A DNA stretch of 64,000 nucleotides from the NCBI GenBank assembly GCA_009760855.2, contig WPIO01000068.1:730001-794000 (forward strand). Reading direction: 5' to 3'. Below the pieces are notes generated by a model that saw only the letters and a list, made by a program, of their open reading frames with translations, made no database searches and was not told where the DNA came from. This document shows positions 3,501 through 59,771 of this stretch, piece by piece. Each line of letters opens with the position of its first letter. Position 1 is the first letter of the stretch. The position numbers and the translations under genes were made by a program. This stretch comes from Cristatella mucedo (Eukaryota > Bryozoa > Phylactolaemata > Cristatellidae).

Positions 3501-6500
3501 CCACAATTCTTACGCAACGAAAACTATTCTCCTACTGCCGACTATGGCACATCCTTTTCAGCGCTCCTGAGCTAATGCTTCTATGCTACTCACTACCTCA
3601 GCTGCTCTCCTGACTCTGCTATGCTTGCCACTTTCTCTTTGTTGCGTGAGACAAAGTCGGTTGGCCAACGAATGCGTACCGAAAGCCGCTTAGGCTGTGA
3701 GTGTGCTATACAGAACTTTCCTGCGTAACACCCACATGGTCTTTATGACTTTATGGAGTTACAGGCAGAGATACATTACATTACATTTGCCAGGGTATTC
3801 GGCAGAATCGGATTCTTCGTGTATGGGATTTTGATTCGCATTTCGATCCCGAATTAAAGCTACTGCATCGGTCGAAGGGAAATGCTTTCGGTAGGCGCCA
3901 TATGTCCAATCAAACGAGGTGGAAAGCAGGTGTGCAGTGATTGGCAAAACCTGTGCGCGAGTGTAGTTGGAGCCCACATCGGTAGCTGGCCGGTTTTGCC
4001 CTATCCCCCAAGCCGAAACAAACAGGTCGTCGCATCATCTCCCGGCAGCGTGCTCCAGCGGTTAATATAGCTGCTGCTCTGTCTTGTGATCTTTGCAGGC
4101 GACAAGGCGAAAATCCAGAAGGTTGTACAGATGGCGTGGGCATTCAGTAACGACAGGTGAGTCTTGCGCAGTGAGCGCTTGTCGTGCCGGGAAGCCGCCC
4201 TGTACACAGACTCTTCTTTGCACGGCCTTCCCTGGCCCCTCCCGTTTGATCCTCTACCTCCTGGTGGAGCGCTCCAGCTCAAACCAGCCCTGCAGCAGCA
4301 GGCCACGTAATGCATAGTCGGCACTCTCTGCTCTGCCCCACCTCACCTCCCCCACTTCTGCCGGACCGAGGCTTGCCTCGTCTTGTGGCTGCCGTGCAGC
4401 AGCCGTTGTCGTGCCGGCGCCGACGTCCAGCTCTCCTGAGCCGGGCTTGTAGGCGGCGGGCAACCTTGCCAGTGTGCTCGCTCCCACATCCCATGCTCGC
4501 CGTTGATCATTTTCGTCCGATGGCCTAGCTGCCGAGAGGCGTGGCCCATGCCTCACCATTGGTGCCCGTGGCCTCGCCTTCTCAGCTGCCCTCGGCTCTT
4601 CCGGTCGCTCGGAGGCTTCGTTTGCTTCTTGCAGCCTCTGCACGACGCTCTGCCTGCAGTGGGAGCCTGAGATAATAGCGATCGCACTCATTCATCTCGC
4701 ATGCCGCCTCACAAAGTTTGAGATCCAGGACTGGCAGGGAAAGCTGCCCTCGCAAAAGGGCAAGTGGTGGGACCAGTTCGTCGAGGACATCTCACTGAAG
4801 CTGCTCGAAGGCAAGAGGCCATGTGCGCTCGAGCAGCGCGCCTAGAGCTGTCGAACGGCTTCTTCGAGCCGCTCCTTGCCGCGTAGTCGCGTCTTCAGCC
4901 CCCTTCTGGGCAGGCCTTCTAGAGCACGAGCCGGCCACTACGGCAGCATCGGAGCTTGGGGCCCCACTCGCCTTGCGAACAGAGGCGGCGGCAAAGCGAC
5001 CGGTCGATCGTCCTGCGGCATCGCGCAGGAAGCTGGCTGCATAGCGAGATCGCAGCCGCTGGTCTCGTTCGTTCCAGACATCTGCCACCAGGTCCTCGAC
5101 CTATACTCGCAAGTGCAGAACAAAGAGGTGGCCTCGCCCACTGCTGCAGCCGTGGGCTCGCACGGAAGCGGTGGAGGCGAAAGCTCGACGAGCCGTCGAG
5201 CATCTATGGGCGGCAGTAGCAGCAACGCCAGCAGCAGTCAGTGTAGCTGCGACCTCAGCAGCAGCCCCCCTTCCCCCGTGACCCAGCTGCCTGCAGATGC
5301 CCTAGCTGAATAGCTGCCGCCGCAGCCGCCACTGAGCCTCTGCCTGCGGCCGGTGTGGCCTCGGCCAGCGACTGAGAGCACAGGCTTTGGTACACCGTAG
5401 GCCGGGCTTCTTCGATCGGTGCGAGCTTGCCTGGATAGCAGTCGCTTGGCGAGTGGCTGGGCCATCGTGGCTGAGCGATCGCTTACCCTTCGTTCCGTCG
5501 CAGCACCGGCTTCGCCGGCAGTAAAGGTGCAGTCCAAGGCCTACGAAGCCGTCGCCGTCGGAGGCGGCAGCCTGCCCGAGCCGTTGCAGTCGAGTTCGGG
5601 TACCACTCCTGCCAGCTCGTCGGCCACCGTCGTAGGCAGCGCTGCAGCGGCTGCAATAGCTTCTGGGGCTGCTCTGCCGCAGCTGACCGGACAGCTGTCA
5701 GTGAGCGGCGGCGCTGCTGCTGCTGCAGTGACCACCTATGCCGGCCACTACATTCCACAGCAGCTTTACACATCCTCCTTCCTGTCATCGGTGAGCCCAT
5801 GCCATGCTGGCAGCGCAAAGAGAGCTTTCGGCCTGAGGCATGATATCTGGCGCAAATTCTGCCATTGTCGGGTGGTTCTCGGGTCGCGGCCTGCGTTCCT
5901 GCCGTCCAGCGATGCGAGTCCCGAGAATCCATGAGCAGGAATGAGGCATTCTCGCAGGCTGCCACCCACCTCGGTCAGCTGCCTGGTCAGGCTTGACCTT
6001 CGATGCATGCACAGGTGGTGTGCTTCAGGGTGCTCCCAGTAAGAAATGAGTGGAAAGACAGCGCGGCTTTCCGAGATGCACTCTCAAAGGCAAAAGTAGT
6101 TGGACTACCTCTGAGGCAGCCGCCGAGATGGTTGCCTACTCGACTCTGCATTTTGAGAAAATGACGAATAAGTTGATGAGACTGTCTTGAGGCTGACTTG
6201 GCCTGTTCTTAACCGTCACATGAGGGTAACCGGTCATTCTGGAAAGTAAAATTCAGTCATCGAATTCGGAGTTCGGCGTTTAGAAAGAAGACTGTCTCAA
6301 TAGTAGTTGTTTGTCATAATGCGGTCCATGTCTCGGGTACCTTTTTGCTTAGCATCCCCTCACCATGACAACTTTCATTCCAAATTGCTGCAAGCATTTA
6401 GGTGAGTGTGCTATTTTGGTTGCCGACGCACCTAAAGCCTCTCTTGCTGTTCCAAAAGAGTGTGGATTTGCTTTCGTAACTCCATAAAATTCTGCTCGAA

Positions 6501-8313
6501 TCGTCAGCAGTCCTCTGGACCCGAGCCTTTGCCCCTTGGTAAGGGCTTAACTTATTCTAAGTGGGCAGAAATGGTTTCCTCTTTGCGACTCGAGAATGCA
6601 GACTGGTCTTATCTAATCGCTTTGTGACAGGTATCGCGGCTAACTTGCTTCCCATGCGATGCATGGAGACTTTGAGCGTAAGTTCGTGCCAAAGCAAAGC
6701 GGTTCTTTAGTGCCCTTAACTTAATGATTTTGTTTTCTTGCATAATAGTAGTTCGGGACCAGTCTGGCCAAGGAGCATTTTCATGGCTTCTAATCTTTGC
6801 TACCTTCCACACACTATGTGAAACCAATGTATTATACTTGTCAATATTGATAGAGTACTAGCAGTTCAAGGGTTCGAGCCCACACTTGTAAAGTGACTCG
6901 GAGTAAGCCCTCAAGGAGCCTATGACTATTTTTCGATCTTGGGCTTAATAGTTAGGCTTTTCCCAGAGAATCAAATGATGCTCCTGAGTTAAAGCTTTAC
7001 AATTCCCACCCGTGCACAGCCTTCAGATGCCGGCATGAGCTGGTGTAGGGGTCGTTTCTCGATGCTCTTCTCTCGGGAAAGCTGCTGTTTGTAAAGGTTT
7101 TTGGCTCATTCTGGGCGTTGCCGTTGCAATTAGGTATCCAATAATCTGTAGACGCAACCTACATGCCTGCTCAGGTACAATTGGGGGCTTAGGAAAAGCT
7201 GCAAAAATCGAGGAAGCGTAGAATTCCAAATACTTTTGCGTTTGATTGCACCCGGAATATTGTCTGACTTTAGTTGCATTCACCGGTCACTCACTATTGC
7301 AGCAGTTGTTGTGGTCAAAATTTGAAGATTATGATCCATTCGGTTCGATCTGGCTTCTGGATTTGGTCGGCATTTTGAATGCTAGCTGCACTGAGCACTG
7401 AGTAGAGAAGGGGAGAGAGAAAGAAAAGAGAGATAGACACAGAGAGAGAGAGACAGAGACAGAGAGACACCAAGACACAGAGACAGACACAAAGAGGGAG
7501 GAGAGTGCGACAGACACGCGGCATGCAAAGAGAGAGAGAAAGAGGGGGAGAGAAAGGGAAGAAAAAGAAATAAGAGAGAATACACAGAAATCTGTGGTGT
7601 TTGTTACTTATACATACGTGCCTGCGTGTACCTGCTGGTCTGAAGGAGCGAAAACTAGCGGGAGGGAAGCGGCAAAGGGCAGGCTGTGGCCATGTGCTAG
7701 CTTTTCATCTGTTTTAGCTGCTTGGGCTAATCATGTGCCTGCCATGTGGCTTCGCTTGCAGGAAGGGACTCAGTCGCTTGCATCGTTGATTGGCAGCCAG
7801 CAGTTGCCGTTTGGAGGTGCTCCGCTACCGCCGTCGCCTCTGCCTCCTCATCCGATGTCGCAGCCGTTTCCGGGTGCACCATACCCTGGCAATGGTGGAC
7901 CGTTCGGTGGGCCACAACAGTACTATCCGGGCCCACCATTGCCGGGGTCTTCATTCGGAGCAGCTAGTCCGCATCCACCTCTACCCCCGACACCAGGGCC
8001 AGCTGCCGGTCCTGGCGGCTTCCCGGCGTTTGCTGGTCTCATCGGTGGTGCACCGCCTTACCCAGGCATGCCGCATGGCTACGGCTTCCCAGGTCCAGTG
8101 CCATCTGATTACCATCCACCACTGCCACCTCCACATCACCATCCTGGAGTCAATTTAGGACGTGGTGGCAGCCATCGCGGTAATCACCGTGGTGGTGGTA
8201 ATGTTGGTGGAGGTGGTGCTGGTGGAGGTGGTGGGGAAGGATCTCAGCAGCACGATGGCAAGAGTAACAAGCAGAATCTATCCTTGCGGTCCTCACTTGT
8301 GCAGATTGTATAG
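572..8313 (+). CDS. CCNK: Cyclin K, nine coding exons, complete
   Basis: Cyclin K is the nuclear regulatory partner of CDK12/CDK13, which phosphorylate the RNA polymerase II C-terminal domain. Exons read from the sequence: 572-708, 1065-1146, 2576-2707, 3001-3106, 4099-4156, 4635-4810, 5078-5277, 5533-5790, 7762-8313. They sum to 1701 nt, an open frame of 566 aa, close to the 580 aa of human cyclin K as I recall it. Hallmarks: [12 protein letters not shown] (exon 1), [12 protein letters not shown] (exon 2), [15 protein letters not shown] (exon 3), [15 protein letters not shown] (exon 4), [11 protein letters not shown] (exon 6), [12 protein letters not shown] (exon 7). Cyclin fold 1 is about residues 25-150 and fold 2 about 152-245. 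The tail is Ala/Ser/Gly-rich (exon 8), then Pro/Gly/His-rich (exon 9). The ATG at 572 starts the conserved N-terminus; an acceptor at 545-546 suggests an upstream non-coding exon. Exons 1-6 and 9 are secure. The exon 7/8 junction (donor 5278, acceptor 5531-5532, both phase 0) is the least certain. Confidence 0.95.
709..1064 (+). other. U12-type intron (intron 1 of cyclin K)
   Basis: The donor reads GTATCCTC, which fits the U12-type consensus GTATCCTY rather than the U2-type GTRAGT. Just upstream of the acceptor TTAG lies GTCCTTGAT (1039-1047), close to the U12 branch-site consensus TTCCTTRAY. Its branch adenosine is about 18 nt from the splice site, and there is no long pyrimidine tract. The reading frame and cyclin K homology fix both exon borders (phase 2). 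The paralogue has the same donor type at the same position. Confidence 0.82.
1484..1692 (-). mobile_element. Family A LINE 3' end in cyclin K intron 2
   Basis: On the minus strand this is the family A LINE 3' UTR and tail: the hairpin region (1500-1540) and the motifs 'gcagcatgcaacattgtcagcatgcataagca' in reverse. It holds only non-coding 3' sequence, so it is a strongly 5'-truncated copy. The rest of intron 2 (to 2575) shows nothing recognisable. Confidence 0.65.
3300..3789 (+). mobile_element. Family B LINE, 3' end, in cyclin K intron 4
   Basis: This is the C-terminal end of a second L2/CR1-like reverse transcriptase. The read-through gives motifs such as [21 protein letters not shown], with frameshifts and a stop (CTGA near 3488). 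It ends in 'gagttacaggcagagatacattacattacatt', the (CATTA)n tail that defines the family. It has the same orientation as the gene. Confidence 0.7.
4811..5077 (+). other. GC-AG intron (intron 6 of cyclin K)
   Basis: The exon ends GAAG and the intron begins GCAAGA, the usual context of a GC donor (AG|GCAAG). The acceptor is TTCCAG at 5072-5077. Joining at this point restores the conserved ...LLE-DICHQ... sequence in phase 1, and no GT nearby does. The paralogue has GAAG|GTAAGA at the equivalent junction. Confidence 0.85.
7408..7590 (+). repeat. GA-rich microsatellite in cyclin K intron 8
   Basis: Imperfect GA/GAGACA repeats of about 180 bp lie some 170 bp before the last exon. In the rest of intron 8 (5791-7407) I see only a short B-box-like 'gggttcgagcccac' at about 6869-6882 without a convincing A box. 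Confidence 0.8.
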
Positions 8314-13849: not shown

Positions 13850-14390
13850 TGAAGGAGGCTGCATTGGTCATATATGTGTGTGCCTGTGTGTGTGTACCTC
13901 TGCTTGTGTGTACAATGCAGCATTTTTCAAGATATGGTGGCCCATTAAGAAGGAATGGCTGCCCATTACTGAGTGCTGAACCTCCGTATGAGATTGATGA
14001 CTATAATAGGAAGTGGGGTTCGAAGTGGGCTCTCGACTTCATCCAGTTTGAGTTAATGCCCAAAAAATAATAATCATCATATGTTTTTCTAATCTTAGTA
14101 ATGCTGCTCTCGATCTAATGTCATAGACGCGTTCTAGTTTCCTGCGATTGAAAAGTCTAGGGTCAAAATATCTACCCTTTGTAGAATTCAAATCTCATAC
14201 CGGCATTTTAGTCTTTGCCTAAAAAGATCTCGCAATCGGTCTAAATCTGCCCCTTTTTGGTCTCCTATATCTCCTTACTCTAAGTAGGTAATATGCTTAT
14301 CCTTCCATCGTGGAAGTGCTATAAACAGGTTTGACTAACTAGAAGCTGCAAGTGTGCTTATCTTCCTGGCAAGGTTTTTAAAACCTAATT
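13850..14390 (+). repeat. Dispersed repeat R3, copy 1, left part
   Basis: It is similar over more than 500 bp, in the same orientation, to 22195-22740. Shared blocks include 'ggctgyccattact', 'aaataataatcat', 'ctagggtcaa', 'ttttagtctttg' and 'gcttatcttcctgg'. It is interrupted at 14390 by a LINE and resumes at 15735. Its nature is unknown; no ORF is preserved between copies. Confidence 0.75.
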
Positions 14391-15734
14391 GATCACAAAG
14401 TTCTTCTAGAGCGCCTCTCATCTCGCCTGGGCATCACTGGCACTGCTCTGCAGTGGTTCAGGTCCTATCTCAGTGGGAGACTCCAGAGTATTGACGTGAA
14501 TGGAAAAAGATTATGTGAAGTACCTCTGAAATATGGAGTACCTCAGGGCTCATTGCTAGGTCCGGTTCTTTTCACGGTTTATACTCTGCCTCTTGCTGAC
14601 GTGATTGCCAAGCACAATCTAGGCTTTCACTTCTATGCAGATGACACTCAGTTGTACCTTTGCTTTGATCCCTCCCAGCCTCCGAGCACCTCAAATTCTC
14701 TAAACTCACTAGCTGCATGCATTGATGACATCCGCACATGGATGGCAGCAAATTTTCTAAAACTTAACGATGATAAAACTAACTTACTAGTTATGGGCAA
14801 ACCCAGTGTGATCCAGAGATTGGAAAGGCTGACTCTCAAAATTGGCTCTGCCAGCATATCTCCAGTTAAATCAGCTCGAAATCTAGGTATCATATTCCAA
14901 AGCGACCTCTCGTTAGACGACCATATCAGCATCACAGTCAAATCCGCCTATTTTCAGCTTCATAACATTGCTAAAATTCGGGCTTGTTTAGATAAAGATA
15001 CCACGTCCAAGTTGGTCCATGCATTCGTGACATCCCGTCTCGACTTCTGCAACTCACTGCTTACTGGCCTACCAGCATGTGCGATCAGGCGATTCCAGCT
15101 GGTGCAAAACTCTGCAGCTAGGCTTGTCTGTCGTGAGCGTCGCAGTTGCCACATTACTCCACTTCTCGCCGACCTGCACTGGCTACCAGTCAAGCAACGG
15201 ATTGACTTAAAGGTTTTGTGGCTCACTTTTAGGTCCCTTCATTCTATGGCTCCAGCCTGTCTGTCAGATATACTACCCCATCAGGCTAAGCATCGTACCA
15301 CCCGCTTTTCAGAATCCAACAGTCTACAAATACCTCATACAAACCTTAAATCCTTTGGAGACCGTGCATTTAGTTCATATGCTCCCAAAGCCTGGAACTC
15401 CCTCCCGATCTGCGTCAGAACATCCCCTGACCTGACCACGTTTAAAAGGAACCTAAAAACACACCTATTTAGGACAGCATTTAGTGGGTCCCTGTGATTC
15501 GTCCTTGATGTGCTTATGCGTGCTGACACTGTGCATGCTGCCACTAACCATATTTGCATGCTGACCCTGTGCATGTCACCCCTAACCATATTATTCATTT
15601 CGTTTGTTTTTTCAAGCATGATTTTACTTACCATTCAATGGCATTTCACTTTGCAGCAAGTGTAAAGCGCCTAGAGAGAGATTAAGTTCTCTGAGGGCGC
15701 TTTATCAAGTGAATTATTATTATTATTATTATTA
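14391..15734 (+). mobile_element. Family A LINE (L2/CR1-like), open RT C-terminal half
   Basis: This is a 5'-truncated non-LTR retrotransposon. The frame is open from 14391 (DHKVLLERL) to the TGA at 15495-15497 (about 368 codons). It holds the RT motifs YGVPQGSLLGP and FYADDTQLY with both catalytic Asp of YADD, then a thumb region and [14 protein letters not shown] near the C-terminus. The 3' UTR ends with a hairpin (15667-15700, stem GCGCC/GGGCGC plus AGAGA/TCTCT) and (ATT)n. It is inserted in repeat R3. The upstream endonuclease and RT fingers are missing, so this copy cannot move by itself. Confidence 0.9.
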
Positions 15735-19576: not shown

Positions 19577-22155
19577 TAATAATAATAATAATAATATTGC
19601 ACTTGATAAAGCGCCCTCAGAGAACTTAATCTCTTTCTAGGCGCTTTACATTTGCTGCAAAGTGATACGCAATAGAATAGTAAGTAAAATCATGCTTGAA
19701 AAACAAACAAAATGAATAACATGGTTAGGGGTTACATGCACTGGGTCAGCATGCAAATGTGGTTAGTGGCAACATGAACAGTGTCAGCACGCATAAGTAC
19801 ATCGAGGACGAATCACAAGGACCCACTGAATGCTGTCCTAAAAAGGTATGTTTTTAAGTTTCTTTTAAATGTGGTCAGGTCAGGGGATGTTCTGATGCAG
19901 GTCGGGAGGGAGTTCCAGGCTGTGGGAGCATACGAGCTAAATGCACGGTCTCCAAAGGATTTAAGGTTTGTACGAGGTATTTCTAGACTGTTGGATTCCG
20001 AAAAGCGAGTGGTACGATGCTTTGCCTGATGGGGTAGTATATCTGAAAGATAGGCTGGAGCCATAGAATGAAGAGACCTAAAAGTGAGCGACAAAACCTT
20101 GAAGTCAATCCGTTGCTTGACTGGTAACCAGTGCAGGTCGGCGAGAAGTGGAGAAATGTGGCAACTGCGACGCTCACGACAGACAAGCCTAGCTGCAGAG
20201 TTTTGCACCAGCTGCAATCGCCTGATCGCACATGCTGGTAGGCCAGTAAGCAGTGAGTTGCAGAAGTCGAGACGAGATGTCACGAATGCATGGACCAACT
20301 TGGACGTGGTATCCTTATCTAAACAAGCCCTAATTTTAGCAATGTTATGAAGCTGAAAATAGGCTGATTTGACTGTGGAGCTGATGTGGTCGTCTAACGA
20401 GAGGTCGCTTTGGAATATGACACCTAGATTTCGAGCTGATGCAACTGGAGATATGCTGGCAGAGCCAATTTTGAAAGTCAGCCTTTCCAATTTCTGAATA
20501 ACACTAGGTTTGCCCATAACTAGTAAGTTAGTTTTATAATCGTTTAGTTTTAGAAAATTTGCTGCCATCCATGATCGGATGTCATCAATGCATGCAGCAA
20601 GTGAGTTGAGAGAATTTGAGGTGCTCGAAGGCTGGGAGGGATCAAAGCAAAGGTACAACTGAGTGCCATCCGCATAGAAGTGAAAGCCTAGATTGTGCTT
20701 GGCAATCACATCAGCGAGAGGGAGAGTATAAACGGTGAAAAGGACCGGACCTAGCACAGAGCCCTGAGGTACTCCATATTTTAGAGGTACTTCAGATGAT
20801 CTTTGTCCATTCACGTCAACACTCTGGAGTCTCCCACTGAGATAGGACCTGAACCACTGCAGAGCAGTGCCAGTGATGCCCAGGCGAGATGAGAGGCGCT
20901 CTAGAAGTACTTTGTGATCGATGGTATCAAAAGCTGCCGAAAGATCGAGCAAAACAAAAAAAGAGACACTCTACCCATGTCTGCATTCCTAAGTAGGTCG
21001 TTGTATACCCGAAGCAATGCTGACTCTGTGGAGTGATTAGCTCTAAAGCCAGACTGGAACTTACTAGCAAGGTGTGAGGTTTCGATATACGAGTTCAGCT
21101 GGTCTGCCACGACCCGTTCCAGTGTCTTTGATAGGAATGGTAGAAGGGAGACTGGGCGGTAGTTGCTTAAGTTCTCTTGGTCTAGTGTAGCTTTCTTGAG
21201 AAGTGGCCTGACTACAGCTTTTTTGAAAGGTGCTGGGGACCTGACCTGAGGCTAATGACATATTAATGATGTTGGTTATGCATGGCAGCAGCAGATCAAT
21301 GCAACTTAGGAGCAGGACAGTGGGAATAGGGTCCAGTGGACTTGTTGTCTTCTTTGATTGAGATACGAGCTTTAGGACTACATCACTAGTGACCTGTTTA
21401 ATTGCAGACATTGAGGCGCAGCCAGGAACCGAGGAACAGCATTCTAGTGGGAAGGTTGTCATCGCAGGGATGGATTCCCTGATTTTGTCTATCTTCTGCA
21501 CAAAGAATCGAGAGAAGCGATCGGCTAGATCATCACAAGGATCATCAGGTAAGGAGCTAACCTGGGAACGGTTGAGGAGATGGTTTATTGTCGACATCAG
21601 CATTTTTGGATTGTGCATCTGTGATTCAACAATGTTTCTATAGAAGCTAGACTTAGCCTTTGCTAGGATCGATTGGTACGACCTACAGTAGTCTTCATAT
21701 TCCTTTCGATGGACAGTTAGTCCGGATTATTTGTATGCCTTTTTAAGCTTTCGTTTAGTAGACTTGGCTAGTTTAATGTCTGTGGTAAACCATAGGCCTT
21801 CTGGGCGGGGGCGCACATTGCGCTTTGTCAAAGGTGCAAACTCGTTGAGCGTGTCAGCTAGTGTCGTGCTGTAGCAATCTACCAGTGATGACAGATCGGA
21901 GGGAGGACTGAGCAGCAAAGGTGAAGCAGATATGCTCGCACGGACAGCATCGATGTCAAGGGTCTTGAGGTTTCGCGATTCACAGGTTATTTTAGAGGAG
22001 AATGTGGGCACACGCTGTAGATTGAATGAGATCTGCATGTGGTCAGATAAGCAGGATTTGGTGATAACTGGTGATGACAAAGTGCAGTTATATGAGAAAA
22101 TTTGGTCGAGTGTGTGACCCTTGATGTGGGTAGGGCCATGCACATGAGTCACAAG
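19577..22155 (-). mobile_element. Family A LINE, longest copy (endonuclease end through RT to tail)
   Basis: Minus strand. It begins within the C-terminus of the AP-like endonuclease (HIKGHTLDQIF, LSDHMQISF), followed by a linker (LADRFSRFFVQKIDKIRES), RT fingers ([18 protein letters not shown] in a shifted frame), RT palm ([30 protein letters not shown]) and thumb to the stop at about 19813. It ends in the hairpin and (TTA)n tail at 19577. The catalytic motif reads FYADGTQLY, so the second Asp of YADD is lost. Frameshifts near 20950, 21200 and 21640 also disable it. Confidence 0.9.
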
Positions 22156-22200
<45 letters not shown>

Positions 22201-22870
22201 CATGTATGTATACTTCCGTGTGTACGTTTGTGTTAGTGTACAATTTTGTGTCCTTTGAGACGTGGACGCCCATTAAGGCTGGCTGTCCATTACTACTTAT
22301 TGCATTATTACTTAACTGCATAATTGCTTCACATTCGGAAGAGGTTAATGATCATACTAGGAACTGTGGTTCGAGGTGGCTCAACTAAATCATAAACATA
22401 CGACTGCCCAACCAAATAATAATCATATTTCCTGTGGTCTTACTCATTTCACTCTCGGTTTAATATCATACAAGCTCTTCCGGCGAGCGTTTAAAAAAAC
22501 TAGGGTCAACATGTTTACCCTTGTAGATCTCCAACCTCATACCAACTTTTTAGTCTTTGACTAAAAAGATTAAGCAACTCGGCATTACCTGTTCGTTTTA
22601 GGTCTGCTGTTGCTCTTACTCTGACTAGTTGGTATGTTCATCCGTCCTGCATTGACGTGACTATGCATGGATTTGATTAACTAGATGCAGTAGGTATGCT
22701 TACCTTCCTGGAATGGCTTGTAAAATATAGTCACGGTAAGCCAAGTTATAAAGAATAAAGAAATCTACGTCTCTGGCTACGTCTGGCCTGGACGCAAAAT
22801 CTGACTAAATAAGAAACGTGCACGGCAGTGCTCAACGTCCGGACAAGCGCACAACGTAACAGACTAAATG
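22156..22870 (+). repeat. (TA)n followed by dispersed repeat R3, copy 2 (uninterrupted)
   Basis: A TA run at 22157-22195 is followed by about 670 bp matching both halves of R3 copy 1 (13850-14390 and 15735-15850) without the LINE that splits that copy. Confidence 0.72.
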
Positions 22871-24071: not shown

Positions 24072-27000
24072 CTAAGCAGCTTTATAGCTGGGAACTGATG
24101 TCCTACCCTCATATTTATCCTTTCCGATGTCAGGTGATGACTTGAGCTTCTCATCCCGATAAGCACTTTCGTCCATCGTGCCCTCAGAAAGCTTTACTTG
24201 CTCATACGAGTCGAGCATCTTGTGGCATATATCTACGATCGAAAGAGTTACATTGATGCAGTTTGAAATAATACAATGACAATTAAAGCTTGCTCTATAA
24301 CGCTGGGAAAATTCAACCCACAGAGCTGCTTTGCATATCCAAAGTCAAAAATTTTAAAAAACTTGGACTACGCCCGTATTATTCCAAAAAAGTTATTGTC
24401 GTATGAGTACCACAGTGACACGTGCGTTGACAATCATATATCAAGCTAAACTGAACCAACAATTTTGACCATAAGCCTATGAGCCCTGAAAGAATTTCAC
24501 TTTCCGCATCACTCTCCAAACTAATTACTCCATAAGCAGCCCGAAAATTCTAATATCCCAGTTAAATAACAGTGATGACACCCTTGTGAAATAAACTCTG
24601 CAATGAGCTTACCATACTAGTAACAATTACATTCCCATCAGAACAATTCGTTACCCTATCTTGAAATAATGAAATTAGAGTGAAGCAAACGCCACACGAC
24701 AGGAATCACCCGTAATTAACCACCTTGGGTGGTAACCACACAGGATTTAGTTGGAGGGAATTGTAAAGCTTTTCAAAGTAACTCATTTGACTCCGCTGCT
24801 GACCCGTGCGACCAAAAAAATGGCTAAATGACAAAATTCTTACGTGACTTGCTTCGGCTATTACCCGGAGATCGTCAGCATGTTTCCGTTTCTCAGCTGG
24901 CGCAGAAATGCTCACCTTTTACTTGAAATTTCATATCAGATTACTAGAACCTATTAACCAGTCGTCTTGAAGGACTGAATCGCAACTAAACATCGTAAGA
25001 GAAGCTGCACAATACTCCTCTGCCACATCCTCCAGGCATGATGATAATGCAAAAAGTCATTTTTGCCCAGTATGGAGATAAAAACTGCCCTCTAGATGAT
25101 ATACTCTCAACGACTATAATCCATCCACCTGAGGTGCTAACAAGGGCCCAAGAAAATGTGTTGCAGGGGTTTCTCTTGTCAAAGCTGTCCGAGAAATAAA
25201 GTAGCTGATTCACCTTCCTCACATACATTGCTGAATATGAGCATTAATGCTTATCACCACAATTTGCAGTAGACAATAGACGATAAATAACATTAAAACG
25301 ATCGAAAATAAACGACAATCGGCAATGAAGACAATAAACAATAACTATTAAACAATAAACATGACAATACAATATAAAAATTAAAGACAACAAACGATTG
25401 CCCACTGCAGGACTCAAACTCCTGACCTGGGTCGTGAGAGCGAGCCCCACCCTTGATGAAGATCTATGATGGGGCTCGTGGAACGGTGTTCTCGGCAAGA
25501 CAGCTTGAATCGGCTGCAGCAGATTCTGCCTAGTTCCTGATCGAGACGTTTCTGGACTTTTAGCTGTTTAGGCATATACGCTAAGAAATTTCAAATTTAA
25601 CATCTTCCAGACACGTCTCCTCATATTCGTGTTATCGCCAGCACAATTTGGGCTTTCATTATAAAGCTGCTCACACATGTGCCTGTGCTTTCATGCTCAC
25701 CTAGCTCTCTAGATTCTCTCTACTGCTAATATTGATTGTATATTTGAAAATAAAAACTAGACATAATTGCTGAGAAATCCCTCAAAATGAATGAGGATAC
25801 AACCCAACTTGGTCAATCTCAAAAGATGATAATAACGTACGACGAAAATATGATGTTATGATTAAATTATAACTAAAAAACCATATTGGTACGGTGCGAC
25901 ATCTGCTAAATCTCGTTCAACGCATGGACGAATGCTGAGAGAGAACAATGACTAGTATGAAGGCGCATAATCCCAGCACTCATAAGTACGAGAGATTGAT
26001 GAACAGAAATACTGTGAATTATACGCTTTAATCTCTCCAGAAAGTTTGAAACTAATTTCATTAGAACCAAAAATGTGTAGCGGCAAAGACGGTATAATTG
26101 TCACACAATCATGCACGACCATACAAGCATCATGATTAGGCAAGTATGAAAAAGCACCGAAGATGACACTCGGGTCACTGGTTAATATGACCTTGTCTAG
26201 TGATATGCGATGAATTTTACTTAGTAAAGTACTTGGGAACTATGCAAATTTAAAATCAGTTAAATATAGAAGCAAGAGTTACCAATTACGGAGAGTACAC
26301 ACTGAAGGTATTATCAACAAATGAATTAGATTTTTAGCGATGTACATTGAAACGACTAGAATTTTAGGAGCCGGCAGTGTAAAAGCTCTGTGGAAAAGAA
26401 ACAACGTCGAATAGGTAGGCTGGTGCCAGCGAGTGAAGCGAACTATAAGCTAGCGAAAGCATCTTAAATAGTATTCCATGCTTTGTATATGGAATCAGTG
26501 AAGTTCAGACAGAAGCTTTGTAATGTGATAATATCACATTTGGTTATCGAATGAAAAAGCTGCTAACATTTGCACCAGTTAAAGATGACCAGGTCAGTAA
26601 ATGCGGGTGTTTTCTTTTCAACTCCTTCAAAGCAGGGCATGTCGTTAAGTTCTCCATTAGTTAGGTGTACACTTCAAACCATGCACACTGGAGGTGCGGA
26701 CTGTAGAGGATTTGGTCATTAAAAGCTACTTCTGTCAACTAGATCGATTAAGCATAACTAGTGACATGATGCGAAGCTTAAAACTTGAGTATTTTAGACA
26801 GGTATGGCAGATAAAGCGAATACAGCATGGAATTTTACAATGGAGTCTTAACTTCAAGGTACTACTTCATGAGAATGCAGTAAATGGCATCAACAACTTT
26901 GGTATATGGAGGCCGCGACGTTCATCTTATTAAATCCAAAGCAGTGTTTTGCTCAAAGGTTCATATTGGTGGCTAAAAATTCGATCCTGCCAACTTTCAT

Positions 27001-28254
27001 CAATACGGAATTACATACATTCAACTTGCTTAGGTACTAATGGCACAGCTAAGCAAGTTCATGCACTTGTGACATCACGTCCGTTAGTGGCTGCTTACAA
27101 GCCTTCTTAAATTTGCGAAAGGGCACATAAATTCGAAGCAAATCTCAGCATTTCGGTACATCAGCAGTGGGTCTTCAATTTCCACGCTTTTAACAACTTC
27201 TAAGTGACCTGCACTGGCATCCGGTGAAGCTGAGCTTTGACTTACAAATCCTGGTATTCACTTTTAGACTGTTTTAACGTTCCATCACACTTAGAAAGTA
27301 ATTCCAGAATGGCAGCTATTTCCGGATATAATCTCTGCAGCGAAAACAAAAATATGCACCCTCTTCGAACTTACTTGCATTTAGGACGTTTTTCTTACCT
27401 TCAACCATATTTATGGTCAAGCCTTCGACATATATACTCCACCAATTTGTCTTATTTTGTTCAGTATGCTTGCTCGCCATACATAAGGTATTGCACCTTG
27501 TTATTCGGAGAGCAAGGTAAATTGAAGCGATGGCGATAATCTGAGGCTCCCATTCCAGGCACAGGGTTGTGTAAAAACTACAGCAGAGGGACTCGAGTCA
27601 GACGAAATATCACCGGAAGCAGCTGAATTAGCAACCAAATCGACTGGATTGACAGTGATTCAGCTGATTCATGAACCATTCTAAGCTAAATTAACAACTC
27701 TTAAGCTGAATCTCTTATCTATACCAATGCGGCTGCCAAAGTGAGCACGAGCACGCTGAGCTGGTGCCAAGGAACAAGCGAAAGCCTGCAGAGGCTGTAA
27801 AAGTTAACGTGTTCTGACGACGTTCGTAGCTGACCGAGTCAGGGAATACGGGCAGTTCATGGATTCCTACCTATCGTTGCAGATCGTCCACGCCTGCTGG
27901 ATCATTTTCTGTTTCTCCTCATCTTCTCCTAAAATAGCCATTCACGGAAGTTATCAAGTAACGTTTTCTCAGAACTCAATAGCAAATCACGTTATACTCT
28001 CACGCAGTATTCTTAAAATTGAAACTATAATCGGCAAGTTTTCTTCACTTTGTGCTGTAAATATAATGGGAGAAAGACAACGACTAGATGTAACAAGAAG
28101 TCTCTATAATGAACTTGAGTGTTGATAATGTGTGTAGTCAGATCCGTGAGTTCTTTCTTTCAAAGATTTGTACTGTGCCTAGTTCTACCTATTCATGTGG
28201 AATGCATGCAGAAGCACACCAAAACTTAGCCAGAATGCTGCACTCACACACACA

Positions 28255-28285
<31 letters not shown>

Positions 28286-31200
28286 GCGCACACACACACA
28301 AACACGCACACACAAACACACACACACACAAACACACACACACATGCGCGCGCGCACATACACACAAGCATACACACACAAACACACACACAAACTTAAA
28401 ATGGCAAGCTTGGGGAACGTAACGCACCGAGGGACATCATGAATTGTAAAAGAAATTATTCAGGCGTGCCTGGGCTTGCAGTTGAATGCCTTTAATAAGC
28501 TCTATGCAGCGATAGACTTTTGATAAATATAAAAAATCACGCCAAATTTATTTTTATGAAGATTAAAAATGTCTAATAGATAAAGACTTTTGTCCTTGGA
28601 GGATTCGTGCTGCAAGGGACACTACGCCACAGGCTCCTATTGCTCATAACCTAGAGGCTAGCTATATTACCACTTGTAGCTTCTACGAGAAAATTTAATT
28701 TCCGTGAATGGGTTCCAGAATTAGCATCCTCTCTAATAATTCTAGGCAAAAAGTCTATATTTGCATTTTTTCCTACCCGCCTATAGGTTCAGCATTAGAA
28801 TTTCGAACTGAGTTCATTTCATATTCCTAACTTAACTGATTTAGCAGATACAAGTATCAGGGCTATGGTTGCAAACGCGAAAAATTTTCATCGTATATGG
28901 TAATAAAAACTAGCTCAAGTATCGTATCAGAAGCGGCAACATACTTCACTGTTAATGAAAAACACGGAATATGTGAACACAGAACAGCGCATAGCCATTG
29001 CATTGAAGCTGGAAGGTCAGAACCTAATAGCCTAATTAATCTCTTTGACATAACGCCTACGAGCCCTAAGAGCCCCATATGAAGCCAATAGCTCCTGTCT
29101 CAGCCAAACTGAAAGCTTCCGAATATGCTGACAAGGTGGCTATAGCCGCGAGACTGAAGCTGCACTCAACAGACATACAATTACGACATCACTGGCTTGC
29201 TGAAAGAAATCGGAGAAATTGATCAGAGCAAAGTAAACATAACTAACCAAGAAGTCAAAAATGATAGCAGGTAAACTTGCATAGTCTTAAAAATACAGCC
29301 ATTTCTTCCCGAACGGATTTAATCTCTAATTCTCAGACGAAGCTTTGCATTGGACTTCCAAAAGGGTAGCAGTAAGTATATCTGCTGGTTTTGCAGCTGC
29401 ACTTACACAAACTTTTCTAACATTTGTAAAGCACCTAGAAACAGAATGAGCTCTCTGAGGGTGCTTTAATAAGTTTAGAATTGTTATTATCTCGAAACCA
29501 AGTGCAGGCTCTTTAGCCGGCTTTGGAATAAAGTAGAAGACTTTATTTTTAAACGGCATGATCGGGTTGCATAGCAAGGAATCCGAACTCGGGGCAAATA
29601 CTTTCCAGGAATGATGCAAGATAAACACAGGATATCAGGAAAGAGAGCTAAAGCCATCGCACGTAACATGCACATTTAGGATCATTTACAGTTGCGAGGT
29701 ATTCTCTTGCACTGCCACCAGTCAGTCTTACCATGGAAGGCCTTGCCGTACTCCATCAGATACTTGTAAGGAAGCTCTACTGAGAAGTCAAAACCTATGG
29801 CCGTCAGCAAAACGCTCTCTGTCATCAAAAGTGTACCCTGAAAATAGAAAATTGTTGTTATACGACTAGTCCGTTGTAAAATCAATGCCATCACTAGATT
29901 TTGTTCCTGAAGGGTTTTTCACTGAACTCTAGTGCTTACGGGGTCTTCAGCAGAGGAAAAAACTTCTTTTTTGATTATGCCGGCTACTTGAGTTTAATGA
30001 TGAGCAAATTATGAAAGGCAAGCAGTGGTACTTCTCGGCTTACGAGTTTAATTCGTTTTGTGCCGGTGCTCGTAACTCAAATTACTCGTGCTTCAAATCA
30101 ATTTTCTCTATTGAAATGAATTAAAACGTCATTAATTGGTTCCTGACCCCCTCAAATCGAGTTTTCAGATGTTTTTAAATTAAAAATGCACTTATAAATA
30201 ACGAATATAATTTTTTAAAATACAGTATGATGTATTTTAATAAATTAGTTTTTATTAATCCTAACGTATGGGATTAACTCGGAGATCAGACAACTTGAAG
30301 ATGCTAATAGAGTTAGACCAGAAAAGCTGAAATGAATATCTGGATCTTATTCGCCGATTTGTGTGTAAAAACGACCCAACAGCTTCTTAGCAAGTAGGCG
30401 AGCATACAGACAACCAACGTGTAGTCAAAAGCGAACTTTATTGGCAGGGCCTTTAAGAGGACGCACCGATTGTTATCAATTACACTATAAACTTTCACAC
30501 GATAATATTGCCGAAAGAGAGTACGTACTTAGCTGCTCCTGCCATGGTTGGATTTTAAACCGGAGTCATGCGATTTTATGCGTCCAAGCACCACAAACGC
30601 TCGCTCGCGTCTATCTGAGAGTGAACCAACAGGCCTGTGCTTGGCGTCAAATCCTGGTCACAGGGCAGCGTCTTGCAACGGAACGTCGTTCGCTGCTCTA
30701 CTCATATCGGCCTGAGTAAACCACACGCCGTGAGACGTTCGCTGGGGCAACTAGTGATATATTATTTGAAGCTGGCTCGTACTCCGAGTTCTAACTCACA
30801 ACTAAAAGCAAAACTTTGGCCGAGAGACAGCTCGTATCTCGAAACACTGACGTGTCAGGCACTCGTAAGCCAAGACTACGGTACATTGTCAATAAAAGAA
30901 ATGAATGAAGTCAACCTGACTTCAAGCTAACAAGTGTTTTATAAAATTTATTTTATTTAATTTAAATTATGTTGTATTTCTAGGGCTAAGTTTTTCTCTC
31001 ACAATTGATCCTTTTATAATAATAATAATAATAAATATTCTAAATGGCTTATCACTCTTTAGCTAACCTTCAAACTGACCTACTTCAACTGCTGGCCAAT
31101 TAGTTTTAGCTATACCTTTTGAAACTCAAAGCATACTCGCCCGAACAGGCCAAGAAAAATTTAAAATAAATTGTCCCTGTACCATCTTAGAATTTTGCTC

Positions 31201-33431
31201 CTTCTGGTCATTTGATAAAATTTCAATTGGATGTGGCGATATTTTTTACTAGGAAGACTTTTTGTAGTACAATTTAATTTGTCATCTGGTTCAGTTGAGA
31301 CAGATTATTCAGTCTCAGTATCATTAGAAGCTTGCATACTCATCACTTCTTTATTTTAATGGGAGAGAAACTCATATTCGAATTATTCTAAGAACAGCCT
31401 TCTCTAGTAACTCAGAAAGAAGTTGTTAGGTTAGTATCATTGCCAAGAAAAGCTTCATTACTGCTCGGCATAAGTACTACGATTTCAAAAAATGCTAGTT
31501 TTGGAATCAAATTCTCCCCTTTCTATCTTGGTCATGGCATTAATAGTTATAATAGTGTTACTGCATTTGATATTACGCCATAATCTTACTCAGTCTCTTT
31601 GTAGGTTCTTTACATTTGCCTCAAAGGAAGCATAGCTGAATGGTTAATTCTCAGAAAACCACTAAGAAAGCAGCAAGAATGGCGGTTAAGGGTGAATCAC
31701 AGGGTTAGCATGCAAGTATGGCTAGTAGCACCATGCAGCCTGTCAGCAAGCGTGAGCACGTAAAGGATGAATCATAGTAAGGCACTAGATGCTGCGATAA
31801 ATAGATATATTTTTAGTTTCTTTTAAATGTGGACAAGTCGGAAGACGTAGTAGCGAAAGCTTGGAGTGAGTTCCAGGCTTTGGGAGCATGCGAATAAAAG
31901 AGACGGTCTCTAAAGAATTTAAGATTTGTGTGAGGTATGGGTAAACGATTAAACTCCGAAAAGCTGGTGATACACTACTTAAACCGATACTGGAATGGGT
32001 ATGATTGGCAAGCCAGAGGAAAAAGAAGGAAGGGACCTAAAAGTGAGTTAAGAAACCATGTAGTCTATGTGTTGCTTGACTGGGAGCCAGTGCAGGTCGG
32101 CAAGAAGTGGTTCGATGTGGCAACAGCAATGCTCACGATTGACAAGCCTAGCGACAGAGTGACGCACCACCTGCGATGCTCACGTTAGACAAGCCTAGCT
32201 GCAGAGTGACGCACCACCTGCGATGCTCACGACAGACAAGCCTAGCTGCAGAGTGACGCACCACCTGCGATGCTCATGATAGACAAGCCTAGCTGCAAAG
32301 TTCGCTCCAGCTGTACTGTCTGTAAAGGTATGCGTGCACGGGCCGGTAGACCAGTAAGCAGTGTGTCACAAGTCGAGACAGGATGTCAAATATTCACGAA
32401 GCAACTTAGATGTGGCATCCCTTTCTAAATTAGCCCAATTTTTGTCGATGTTATGTAGTGAAACTAGTCAGATTTGACTGTAAAGCTGATGTGGTCTTTT
32501 AATGAGAGGTCACTTCGAAAAGTTTCATATAGATTGCATGCAGATTCAATAGGAGATATGCTGACAGTGTCAACTTCAAGCGTTAGCTTTTCCAATTTCC
32601 GAATCCCACTTTTTACCATAACTAGCTAAGTTAGTTTTACCATCAGTAATTTAAGAATGTTTGCTGCCATCCATGTGCGCATGTCATCAACACGTGAAGC
32701 GAGGGATTTTATAAAAGTTGACGTGCTCGAGGGCAGGGATATGTCAAAATAAAAGTACAACTGAGTTTCCTCTGCATAGAAGTGAAACCTTGGATTGTGC
32801 TTGGCAATCACTATGTCAAGAGGGAGAGTGTAAAACGTAAAAACAACGGGACCTAGCAAAGATCCTCGAGGTATCCCATATTTCAGAGGTTCCTTGGGTG
32901 ATCCGTGTCCATTTACATCAATACTATGGATTTTCCCACTGAGGTAAGACCTAACCCATTGCAACGGAGTGCCAGTGAGGCCCAGGTGAGCTCAGGAAGG
33001 ACGTGGTGATCGATAGTATCAAAAGCTGCCTAATGCTCTAGCACAACAAGCAGAGATACTCTACATAAATCTGCATTCATAAGTTGATAGTTATACACCC
33101 GATGCATTGCTGACTCTTTTTAGTGAGTATCTCTAAAACTGGGCTGAGTTCAGCTGGTGTGCCACTACTAGTTCCAGAGTCTTTGATAGGAAGGGTGTGA
33201 TGGAGACTAGGCGGAAGATGCTCAAATTATTTTGGCCTTGTGTTACTTTCTTGAGTATTGGCATGACTACAGCCTTTTTTGAATGGTGCTGGAACATGAC
33301 TTGAAAGTAATAACACATTGATGATGTTGGTTTTGCATGGAAGCATCACATTATTTGGTATTCTGTTAAAGTCGAATATTTCTTCCATAGTTAAAGGCGG
33401 GGAAGTTTTTTCACTTCCCTGTCTCTCTCTA

Positions 33432-33474
<43 letters not shown>

Positions 33475-35851
33475 ACCTCGCGTTTTTTCTTCACATTCTT
33501 TTCTTATCCTTCTTTTTTGTGTGCCTCTTTGCCTTTTTTGGTCTTATTAAACTTGTATATCCATATTGCGTTCAGCACTACACCTTTGCCGTATTCATTA
33601 CATAGCTTATACGGCTGGTCTATGGAATGGCATTGAAAAAGTGACTCTTTTTATAAATATGGATTCAAAGCGCTGTAAAATGCAATACCTGAGGATTCTC
33701 CCCAAACGCTAAGTTGAACTCGCCAGGCAGCATGAGCTCTTTCGCGCTTTCCACAACCAGGTGGCATTTCTTCGGAGTCTCTTCCGACTTTCCAGCAAGA
33801 AAAAGGCACGCTGCTCCGGTGAGCTGTGAAAAATCAGAAATCTTAATTCTTCAATCCCTTTAACATAAAACATACAACCAAGTTGTATTCATACACAATA
33901 TAATCAATTAAAAAATTTGAATGCAATTGAAAATTGTTGGGGCAGTGTCATCTGTATCAAATTATTTAAGATACACGTCCTGATGAAATAAAATTAGCAC
34001 GGCTGAAAACTGCATTTAAAAATCACTAACTAAGCATACAGCATTCTTTTTTTAATAAACAGCTTCTTCACCATCAAGGATTACAATTTTACTAACAATA
34101 ACATGCAATTTAAAAAAATATTCACCCTCGCTATAGAGAAGAATTAGCTGGTAGTAATAAAGGAGTAGCTCAATGACAGTTAATTAATTCACTGTGAATT
34201 TTGACTTCTTTTAGCATTCCCTTATCTGAGGCTTTAAAATTTACTCTATTGTGAAGATGAGTTGTTTTTTCTGTGCATGAAAAATAAAATCTCTGAAATG
34301 ACTGAGATTTCGGCACCCCTAACTTTATGTTATTTAACATTTAGTCAAAAATCTCAAACTTTTCTAAATGCTATATCTTTATGTGCTGCTGATAGCTACC
34401 ATTTAGATGTTTTTATTGCTAGAAGTTCATATTTATTGCAGCAAACCTAAATTGCCCAAAAGACATTTAATTCTCTCAGGGTGCTATATCATATGTATTA
34501 TTATTATTATTATTATTATTGGGGCCGATGTTAAGAACTGAGATCGAGACAAAAACGTCATAAGTGTCATTAACATTACTTTGCCGGTATCACCCAAGCT
34601 CACGCTGGCTATTTTATAAATCAAAACAGTAAAGCACCCCTAAGCTCAAGTTATTTTTATTTTAGAGCATGCACAGAAGGCGATTTTTACCTTTTTCCAA
34701 TTCTTAGAGTCTTCACCGTAGGCAAGGTGCTTGCTCTTCATGACCAAGGTCGCGGGCTACAGACCGGCCGGTAATTTATTTATGCCTACTATTAGCTGTA
34801 ATGATTGCCAAAAAGACTAGTATTGCTATATAATTCATAAAAATAAAATACGATACATTTGAATAGAAAATAAGAATATATATATATATATATATATATA
34901 TCTCGCAACCGCATCCTACGACATTATTTATGTAAGGTGAGTACCTAGCCCCGAGGCAAACTTGTTGTATTCGCTAATGTTATTGTTTACATCCATTAAT
35001 CCTTTCGCTCTACTATCCTAATAACTGGTGGCCATTAGTGCCTTCATACTTCCTAAGCAATCTGGCATATACATGCACTTGTTTGTTATTGCAAGATTGA
35101 TGCAGTAGGTTCACTAATTATTGGTTACAAGTGTTCTGGCTGTGAGTCTTCTTAAACAACCTAATTGTGACACCTAACTAATCCTTATTAGCACAGGCTT
35201 CTTGTGCATAGTGATAATTAAAACAATGGAAAAGACGATAAACTTACGTATATGTTGAACTCTTTTAAGTCTTTCTTGCTGTAAAATTTATGAAAGTACA
35301 CGATCGCACTGGCAGAAGTTGTGTACGGTCTACGAGCAAAGTTAAAGATAACAGGACAAAATTATGTAAGCAAGTAGCAGGTTAGTAATATCTACACGAT
35401 TCCCAGCAACAGTATATAATTGTTCTTGCTAGTAAACCTAAGCAAACGATTGACTGATGCAAGTGCATGCATCCAAACACTTGTATGCCTATTCGTAAAT
35501 TCCCTCACTTCCTTCGAGCAAACTACTTTAGCGTATATGCTAAGAATTTCACTTATTTAAGGCATGGAAACAAAATAAAAGATATCAATTAATTGCTTCA
35601 TGGCACGTAACTGACTGCAGATGGAAGTGCAACAGCGAGTTTCAAGAATGAACGGTAAAATAAGCATAGCTACACCAGACACAGTGCTCGGCAAAAACTG
35701 GCCACAATGAAGGATACAGCCGAAGTAGGTTTCCTAAATTTTTAATGAAATCCACTCCTTTGAATCTGAGCCAGTCAAAATCTTTGGTTAAACCATCTTT
35801 GCAAAACTGGCTGTCTGTAACTTCACCTTTTCCTAAGTGGGCAGTTGACAT
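24072..35851 (-). CDS. Cyclin K-like paralogue, seven coding exons, 284 aa, no Pro-rich tail
   Basis: Minus-strand exons: 35851-35718, 35329-35248, 33823-33689, 29837-29732, 27928-27871, 27577-27399, 24232-24072. They sum to 855 nt, in frame, ending TAG. Lengths of exons 1-6 are 134/82/135/106/58/179 against 137/82/132/106/58/176 in cyclin K, with all phases equal (2,0,0... as 2,0,0,1,2,1). Matches: [106 protein letters not shown]. The CDK-contact core GK-EETPKK of fold 1 is kept; fold 2 is more diverged. The ATG at 35851 follows an acceptor with a T-rich tract at 35883-35882, so a 5' non-coding exon is likely. A donor at 24106 could lead to further exons; otherwise the protein ends soon after fold 2. 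Binding to a CDK12-like kinase is inferred only. Confidence 0.93.
25232..25452 (-). mobile_element. SINE-2 copy with internal low-complexity expansion, in paralogue intron 6
   Basis: Its two ends match SINE-2 ('atcaccacaatttgcagt' and 'gcccactgcaggactcaaactcctgacctgggtcgtgagag'). The loop of the body hairpin has grown into about 120 bp of AATAAACGACAAT-like repeats. Confidence 0.6.
26790..27330 (+). mobile_element. Decayed L2/CR1-like LINE in paralogue intron 6
   Basis: Plus-strand fragments still read [13 protein letters not shown] and [24 protein letters not shown], matching the family A C-terminal region, with stops between. It ends about 70 bp before paralogue exon 6. Further relic-like sequence (about 26390-26480, minus) is too weak to place. 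Confidence 0.5.
28243..28393 (+). repeat. (CA)n/(CG)n compound repeat in paralogue intron 4
   Basis: A CA run passes into a pure CG run (28271-28289) and back to CA, then a second CGCGCG block at about 28347-28355. It is all alternating purine-pyrimidine over some 150 bp. Confidence 0.9.
28394..29411. other. Paralogue intron 4 remainder, nothing certain
   Basis: A plus-strand open stretch (about 29079-29215) reads like protein (Lys/Ala-rich) but has no splice sites I trust. No repeat family is recognised. Confidence 0.35.
29412..29490 (+). mobile_element. Family A LINE tail in paralogue intron 4
   Basis: It reads 'catttgtaaagcacctagaa', then 'ctctgagggtgctttaataag' and an ATT-rich end. This is the 3' hairpin region alone. 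Confidence 0.65.
30026..30886. mobile_element. Non-autonomous DNA transposon relic in paralogue intron 3
   Basis: The left end reads CAGTGGTACTTCTCGGCTTACGAG, broken here only by quoting, followed by 'gctcgtaactcaaattactcg'. The right end in reverse reads GTACCGTAGTC, TTGGCTTACGAGT, then 'tttcgagatacgagc'. These are imperfect terminal inverted repeats with a second inner pair. The length is about 860 bp and no transposase is visible. The ends look pogo/Tigger-like, but a TA duplication is not clear. Confidence 0.5.
31570..33360 (-). mobile_element. Diverged family A LINE in paralogue intron 3
   Basis: Minus strand, collinear with the 19.6-22.2 kb copy from the RT fingers ([18 protein letters not shown]) through [11 protein letters not shown] and FYAEETQLY to the 3' UTR. 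YADD reads YAEE and several frameshifts are present. It has the same orientation as the host gene. Confidence 0.75.
32129..32311 (-). repeat. 47-bp tandem repeat inside the LINE
   Basis: Four units start at 32129, 32176, 32223 and 32270, each exactly 47 bp apart ('atgctcacg...gacaagcctagc...gtgacgcaccacctgcg'). The last is cut short. In other family A copies this RT segment occurs once. Confidence 0.85.
33433..33473 (+). repeat. (CT)n microsatellite
   Basis: A CT run in paralogue intron 3, about 215 bp from exon 3 of that gene. Confidence 0.9.
34445..34520 (+). mobile_element. Family A-type LINE tail in paralogue intron 2
   Basis: The tail hairpin remnant ('cattaatt' region, 'tctcagggtgctatatca') is followed by (TTA)n at 34497-34520. 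Confidence 0.55.
34690..34785 (+). mobile_element. Possible tRNA-derived SINE head
   Basis: 'aggtgcttgctctt', 'gaccaaggtcgcgggctacagaccgg' resembles the SINE-1/SINE-2 heads (anticodon-loop area plus a mutated B box). No tail is visible. A (TA)n run follows at 34877-34902. Confidence 0.35.
35330..35717 (-). other. U12-type intron (intron 1 of the cyclin K paralogue)
   Basis: The donor reads GTATCCTT, an exact U12-type match. ATCTTTAAC (35349-35341), with two differences from TTCCTTAAC, puts the branch A 12 nt from the acceptor TAG. The position and phase equal those of intron 1 in the plus-strand cyclin K. Confidence 0.82.
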
Positions 35852-59679: not shown

Positions 59680-59771
59680 GTTGGACATCATCAGGAAAAT
59701 GAAATTCGATTGCTGAGTGCTAATGCCCAAACCTCTACACTTGTTATTGTCGACAGCATGATCTATAAATG
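59680..59771 (+). repeat. Satellite array, left remnant unit
   Basis: 'ggacatcatcaggaaaatgaaattcgattgctgagtgctaatgcc' and 'ttgtcgacagcatgatcta' match the middle of the ~300-bp satellite unit. It is cut by a LINE at about 59772. Confidence 0.7.

Follow-up and report, generated by a model that had tools for sequence, protein, structure and literature searches.

At RNA polymerase II, CDK12 and CDK13 work with cyclin K, which helps to tune RNA-making and, as far as is known, is conserved and single-copy in animals. The stretch of Cristatella mucedo DNA analysed here (the window: 64,000 nucleotides, taken from contig C645 from position 730001) raises the question of what a second, strongly diverged cyclin K gene opposite the conserved one represents: a working cyclin, a cyclin with a changed partner, or a copy on its way to loss. 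The initial annotation described the two as a facing pair. Gene 2 does face gene 1, but the locus is larger than a pair, as a third gene and a broken fourth lie beyond the window. Positions below are those of the window unless a contig is named.

572-8313, plus strand: gene 1, the conserved cyclin K (386-387 bits to human cyclin K in PDB)
572-708, 1065-1146, 2576-2707, 3001-3106, 4099-4156, 4635-4810, plus strand: gene 1 exons 1-6
5078 (start), plus strand: gene 1 exon 7
~7762-8313, plus strand: gene 1 Pro-rich tail exon
24072-35851, minus strand: gene 2, the second cyclin K; 7 exons, 284 open codons, then TAG
35718-35851, minus strand: gene 2 exon 1; predicted ATG at 35851, U12-like donor GTATCCTT directly after
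35248-35329, minus strand: gene 2 exon 2
33689-33823, minus strand: gene 2 exon 3; KSEET segment and a one-codon insertion common to genes 3 and 4
29732-29837, minus strand: gene 2 exon 4; helix H5, with Ser as the equivalent of Arg145
27871-27928, minus strand: gene 2 exon 5
27399-27577, minus strand: gene 2 exon 6; WEPQIIAIA segment
24072-24232, minus strand: gene 2 exon 7 as read to TAG; internal phase-1 donor GAGG/GTAGGA

Gene 1 has an AATAAA 32 bases 3' of its stop codon, and because stops occur within the frame of its exon 7, one more intron must lie somewhere in ~5.1-5.5 kb. After exon 6, intron 6 of this gene opens with a GC donor (4811-4812, GCAAGAGG). A dispersed repeat in intron 2 (1476-1687) recurs inside and upstream of gene 2 with 70-74% identity.

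The seven minus-strand exons and intact frame that the initial annotation proposed for gene 2 are borne out at the same coordinates, with 284 codons and six introns, all GT-AG (12/12 splice-site dinucleotides intact); the stops, frameshifts and lost splice sites that would mark a pseudogene number 0. The lengths of exons 1-6 in gene 2 and gene 1 (134/137, 82/82, 135/132, 106/106, 58/58 and 179/176) differ by whole codons, so that intron positions and phases are the same over these exons, as had been proposed, and the six introns agree with the earlier view that gene 2 is not a retrocopy. It is uncertain where exon 7 ends at its 3' side: the donor GAGG/GTAGGA within it is the site homologous to the exon 7 donor of gene 3, and the last codons read in gene 2 are therefore perhaps intron. 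The annotated lack of a Pro-rich tail holds in that nothing like the tail of gene 3 was found for gene 2 at ~8.4-24.3 kb, between genes 2 and 1, among frames of at least 35 codons, a listing that a short or diverged tail exon could escape; short Pro-rich frames do exist there, however, the richest having 54 codons with 10 Pro. Gene 2 is probably tail-less, and its exon-1 ATG, exon-7 end and absence of a tail are predictions.

A sequence search against solved structures returned cyclin K as the best match of gene 2 (198 bits, E 1.7e-57), with cyclin L1 next at 75 bits and cyclins L, T and C all at 75 bits or below. The low identity and fast divergence noted earlier are confirmed, as gene 2 shares 105/244 aligned residues with gene 1 and 99/242 with human cyclin K, compared with 166/243 for gene 1 and human cyclin K, and with human as reference gene 1 carries 11 unique changes and gene 2 carries 77 (chi-square 49.5). 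The alignment of gene 2 to human cyclin K covers both cyclin-box regions (query residues 29-245); Pfam recognised Cyclin_N alone in gene 2, that is, the first box and not the second, and both boxes in gene 3, whose cyclin part scores 241 bits to human cyclin K versus 111 to other cyclins. Descent of gene 2 from cyclin K is firm; a cyclin K function of gene 2 is putative.

Two contacts with the kinase are informative here. In the available text of the structural reports, Glu108 within the KPhiEEPhi motif pairs with the PITAIRE arginine of the kinase, Arg773 in CDK12, and Arg145 of helix H5 is the likely CDK12 specificity contact (PMC3973122); CDK12 Phe802 sits on helix H5, and Arg145 pairs with Thr794 or Gly807 (PMC4656997). 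We use Arg145 as a proposed specificity contact and not as a formal criterion of the cyclin K family. Glu108 is present in genes 1, 2 and 3. Position 145 is Arg in genes 1 and 3 and Ser in gene 2. The core motifs said to survive in gene 2 do so in part, WEPQIIAIA and Glu108 being kept, but KPhiEEPhi now reads KSEET, with Ser at its first hydrophobic position.

On the kinase side we recognised a multi-exon CDK12 gene on contig C111, which human CDK12 matches in five exons, at 75-79% in four of them and at 56% in the other. It reads TDKQKALDFRKDKG at the T794/F802/G807 loop and PITAVRE, which keeps the PITAxRE arginine; the exact PITAIRE codon pattern gave 0 matches. The loop facing Arg145 is thus intact and the partner side unchanged, and the loss of Arg145 to Ser in gene 2 would hint at a partner change. 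The kinase search of the genome gave 115 matches, few of which were looked at, so a second CDK12-like gene could be among them. Two intronless frames on contig C22, 51-52% identical to human CDK12, were considered as a second, co-duplicated CDK12 and set aside as CDK9 type, one of them scoring 550 bits to CDK9 against 311 to CDK12 and the other being nearly identical to it.

C22:8577299-8578165 and 8588897-8589763: intronless CDK9-type frames, ~11.6 kb apart

We searched the 572-Mb, 688-contig assembly with the proteins of genes 1 and 2. Its mitochondrial cox1 is consistent with the invertebrate genetic code (AGR Ser, ATA Met, AAA Lys, TGA Trp). With gene 1 there were 21 matches, 17 of them on C645, where they form four loci, and the other four fall on C62 (2), C653 and C86; one C62 match is a cyclin T by the structure-sequence search. 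With gene 2 all matches (17/17) are on C645. As these searches scored the best candidates, the cyclin K loci number at least four, and more distant copies are possible. The locus holds a local cyclin K family of at least four loci.

C645:797644-807120, minus strand: gene 3, the third cyclin K; readable exons 1-7 and a Pro/Gln-rich tail exon
C645:807120-806978, 806607-806526, 804051-803917, 802432-802327, 801658-801601, 801472-801312, minus strand: gene 3 exons 1-6
C645:799542 (start), minus strand: gene 3 exon 7, one of two top acceptors (score 32)
C645:~839380-848867, minus strand: gene 4, the fourth cyclin K, broken

Each of exons 1-6 of gene 3 has a GT donor, and AG precedes exons 2-6. The acceptor of exon 7 was sought among 2,499 AG sites, the tied site sitting in a repeat array of exon 7 described below; two control regions reach no more than 15 and 22, and close to gene 2 a false site scores as high as 25, so the score of 32 is not decisive by itself, and the homologous site in gene 4 supports it. 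Downstream of exon 7 lies a frame of 204 codons with 28 Pro, 23 Ser, 17 Thr and 14 Gln. Relatives of this frame were found at the cyclin K locus on C645 only (5/5 matches; 8 candidates scored), and for this reason we take it as the Pro-rich tail exon of gene 3 and reject the idea that it is a dispersed transposable element. The exon 7-8 junction is predicted, and its exact position is approximate.

Gene 4 has an extra base in a short run of exon 1 and an exon 2 without its 3' part and donor; its exon 7 is frameshifted, and its tail frame contains one stop. The change in exon 1 alone could be a sequencing error, the loss in exon 2 hardly so, and as read gene 4 is a pseudogene. The non-coding DNA of genes 3 and 4 has diverged by 0.15-0.20 near exons 4-7 and by 0.32-0.41 near exons 1 and 2, where the compared stretches are short (149 and 89 sites). 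Exon 3 is identical in the two (135/135) within flanking non-coding DNA that differs at 45/839 sites (divergence 0.056); identity inside such a low-divergence tract looks like recent conversion followed by constraint. Over exons 4-6 (108 codons) dN is 0.072 and dS 0.16-0.19. Over the tail (200 codons) dN is 0.060 and dS 0.103, the three codon positions differ at 0.07/0.06/0.07, and there is little constraint between the two tails.

The first intron provides a further character shared by the copies. In genes 1 and 2 it opens with GTATCCT, and genes 3 and 4 have GTATCCC instead, forms that we take to be minor-spliceosome (U12-type) donors. GTATCCTY is not rare in itself, with 9 occurrences in the window against 3.0 expected, so the weight lies in its holding the same position in four copies and in mouse Ccnk. 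A U12 intron is reported for mouse Ccnk in the accessible text of PMC12332006, with the primer placed in the homologous exon; that primer translates as ARFIFD, the exon preceding intron 1, a place judged from the primer. Gene 2 has this cyclin K-type structure, with the U12-type intron following the GARF exon. The branch sites of intron 1 match 8/9 consensus positions in gene 1 and 7/9 in genes 2 and 3, and among ten further introns from genes 1 and 2 there is one that likewise scores 8; the putative branch sites are therefore of moderate strength, less clear than the donors. A search for U6atac gave 0 matches (46/16,209 candidates scored), and no control gave a signal in it.

To place the copies relative to one another, we built a tree from genes 1, 2 and 3 and human cyclin K over 239 columns. 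Genes 2 and 3 are sisters with a bootstrap of 100, and 21 informative sites favour this grouping, against 1 and 2 that favour the other two. The branch of gene 1 measures 0.12; the stem common to genes 2 and 3 measures 0.51, and from it gene 2 extends by 0.66 and gene 3 by 0.37. Genes 2, 3 and 4 also have one extra codon of exon 3 in common, and all three are on the minus strand, opposite to gene 1. The sister grouping and the shared codon indicate a single founding duplication of gene 1, after which the copy changed rapidly and then multiplied.

Copies of single exons, and transposon fragments, are also present around these genes.

59645-64000, continuing to ~66175, minus strand: degenerate tandem array of gene 3 exon 7 with the intron end, unit ~300 bp
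57948-58534, minus strand: orphan copy of the tail exon, 70-71% amino-acid identity to the gene 3 tail in two pieces
55105-55702, minus strand: second orphan copy of the tail exon, more decayed, 31-44% identity over the main pieces
~31800-33300, minus strand: LINE-type reverse transcriptase fragment in gene 2 intron 3; frame 32626-32991 resembles the RVT_1 frame by eye
14382-15497 (plus), 19813-22272 (minus), 59773-60959 (plus) and others: LINE-type fragments, 14382-15497 confirmed by Pfam

The exon-7 array is ~6.5 kb long, two thirds of it within the window and ~2.2 kb past the window end, and comprises, genes 3 and 4 not counted, 17 stretches that match in full or in part in the 264 kb searched. 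We compared 14/16 aligned copies, leaving out one that is disrupted and one that overlaps its neighbour. The codon positions of these 14 copies differ at 0.26, 0.28 and 0.28, and such equal change is what makes the array look like a decaying repeat and speaks against a set of alternative last exons. The acceptor AG is retained in 11/14 copies and some frames are open to about the donor, and copies of the array may be used as exons. Fragments resembling, by eye, one LINE-type reverse transcriptase family lie both within the cyclin K genes and in the DNA that separates them. Ten frames of the window put to Pfam gave one reverse transcriptase match and nothing else, and the window had no hit in Rfam or in a tRNA scan. 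Elsewhere on C645, at ~945-963 kb, there are open, metalloprotease-like frames with the segment FAHEIGHNFGSPV, which are presumably ADAM10-like.

Given a frame that remains open after so much change, we asked how often neutral change would leave one. In simulations run without indels, on frames of 248 or 284 codons and from two starting sequences, stop-free outcomes never exceeded 2/2,000 at any of the eight branch lengths tried, which spanned 0.2-1.2 substitutions per site. At 0.26 per site they numbered 4/40,000 and 3/40,000, and at 0.1 per site 663/40,000 and 630/40,000. The fitted branch of gene 2 corresponds to 0.8-1.2 neutral substitutions per codon, or ~0.26-0.39 per site, which is too long for the frame to have stayed open by chance; gene 2 has therefore not been neutral over the whole branch. 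At a length of 0.1 per site enough frames stay open to allow a short, recent neutral phase. The initial annotation had gone further, reading the open frame as selection for a new role; the simulation upholds the part that gene 2 was not neutral for most of its history, but a new role is more than the frame can show.

A codon model fitted to the three sequences (239 codons) gives branch dN/dS values of 0.13 for gene 1, 0.66 for gene 2 and 0.15 for gene 3. Fixing the ratio at 1 costs 5.2 log units for gene 3 and 0.09 for gene 2. One ratio for genes 2 and 3 together (0.29) is 1.35 log units worse than separate ratios, and one for all branches (0.22) is 3.3 log units worse. The comparison of dN/dS between the paralogues, proposed earlier as a check, is thus split in its outcome: the gene 3 branch rejects 1, but that of gene 2 is indistinguishable from it. 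Since the own-branch value of gene 2 fits about as well as 1 and the shared value is barely worse, these fits do not establish that gene 2 is neutral, nor that it evolves under a regime of its own, and with a cost of just 1.35 for the shared ratio no difference between genes 2 and 3 can be claimed. Gene 3 shows signs of purifying selection. Genes 1 and 2 differ at 0.43, 0.30 and 0.59 of first, second and third codon positions; their dS of ~2.0-2.5 is near saturation (NG86 and YN00 yield no usable dS) and GC3 is 0.69 versus 0.52, so that the codon model is strained and the dN/dS values are rough.

The reading that we favour, at a probability of roughly 55%, is that gene 2 codes for protein and belongs to a small, lineage-specific family of cyclin K genes, as a relaxed or re-targeted and probably tail-less member. 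The sequences show that the founder copy arose by duplication of gene 1 at the DNA level, introns included, and that it diverged fast before splitting into gene 2 and the line of genes 3 and 4; the latter two were duplicated later, and gene 4 broke. Gene 3 keeps the cyclin boxes, Glu108, Arg145, a tail and the signs of purifying selection, and is most likely a second working cyclin K, presumably made for the CDK12 recognised here. Gene 2, with Glu108 and its frame kept, Arg145 lost and no tail found, would most likely make a short cyclin-box protein whose binding to CDK12 is weaker or different; the face around Glu108 may continue to hold CDK12, and its role would have been narrowed, or the gene would be sliding towards loss. 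The sequence shows the gene anatomy, the family, the divergence, the open frame of gene 2 and the signs of constraint on gene 3; the expression, kinase binding and roles of the extra copies in this scheme are what we infer.

The possibility to be taken most seriously beside this is that gene 2 was recently silenced, having been constrained until lately and now drifting with its frame open by chance, as gene 4 would have done early in its decay. Such a history is possible: the own-branch dN/dS is compatible with 1, no tail exon was found, Pfam does not recognise the second cyclin box, the related gene 4 is broken, and 0.1 neutral substitutions per site leave 663 and 630 of 40,000 frames open. 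Set against it are the 12/12 intact splice dinucleotides together with the U12-type donor, a fitted branch too long for neutrality throughout, and a ratio of 0.29 common to genes 2 and 3 that is not rejected. A more speculative reading is that cyclin K, a general and normally conserved transcription cyclin, has in one lineage of animals turned into a tandem family that evolves fast, gene 2 being a short competitor for CDK12 or the cyclin of another kinase, perhaps in the germ line only; we put it forward tentatively. Positive selection on gene 2, as a cyclin-box protein competing with cyclin K or tracking a changed partner, seems unlikely to us. It would account for 77 unique changes against 11 in an open frame and for the loss of Arg145 opposite an unchanged CDK12 loop; no fitted ratio exceeds 1, however, three sequences cannot reveal site-wise positive selection, and no fast-diverged CDK12 copy was recognised among the kinase matches looked at. 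An artefact is highly improbable, as we found no point in favour of it and the 43% protein identity excludes allelic copies, the match to solved cyclin K (E 1.7e-57) refutes a chance reading of non-coding DNA, and 17/17 gene 2 matches lie on C645.

Gene 2 can be set beside systems already described. With cyclin K (CCNK), the partner of CDK12/CDK13, it shares descent, exon phases, the U12-type intron, an alignment over both cyclin-box regions and Glu108, and it differs in its 41-43% identity, Ser for Arg145, the lack of a tail in our search and the recognition by Pfam of the first box only. The vertebrate cyclins T1/T2 and L1/L2 are paralogous transcription cyclins that are dispersed and well conserved. 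They are likewise duplicated transcription cyclins kept in one genome, whereas the cyclin K copies here are clustered and fast-diverging, and one is dead. Decaying tandem duplicates are resembled by the broken gene 4 and by an own-branch dN/dS of gene 2 that is compatible with neutrality, but genes 2 and 3 keep their frames and splice sites and the gene 3 branch rejects neutrality. As read, gene 4 shows that copies at the cyclin K locus do die.

Cyclins T and K are reported in metazoans, and the available text of that account describes no such cluster (PMC3923393); among the papers listed in our searches on cyclin K duplication, no title or abstract opening reports an extra cyclin K gene. What is new here is thus not cyclin K itself, which is known, but a cluster of fast-diverged extra copies, two readable and one broken. 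As the locus offers two extra copies that can be read, a dead one that serves as a control and one recognised CDK12, it would allow natural variation to be used to ask which surfaces of cyclin K matter, among them Arg145 and the tail.
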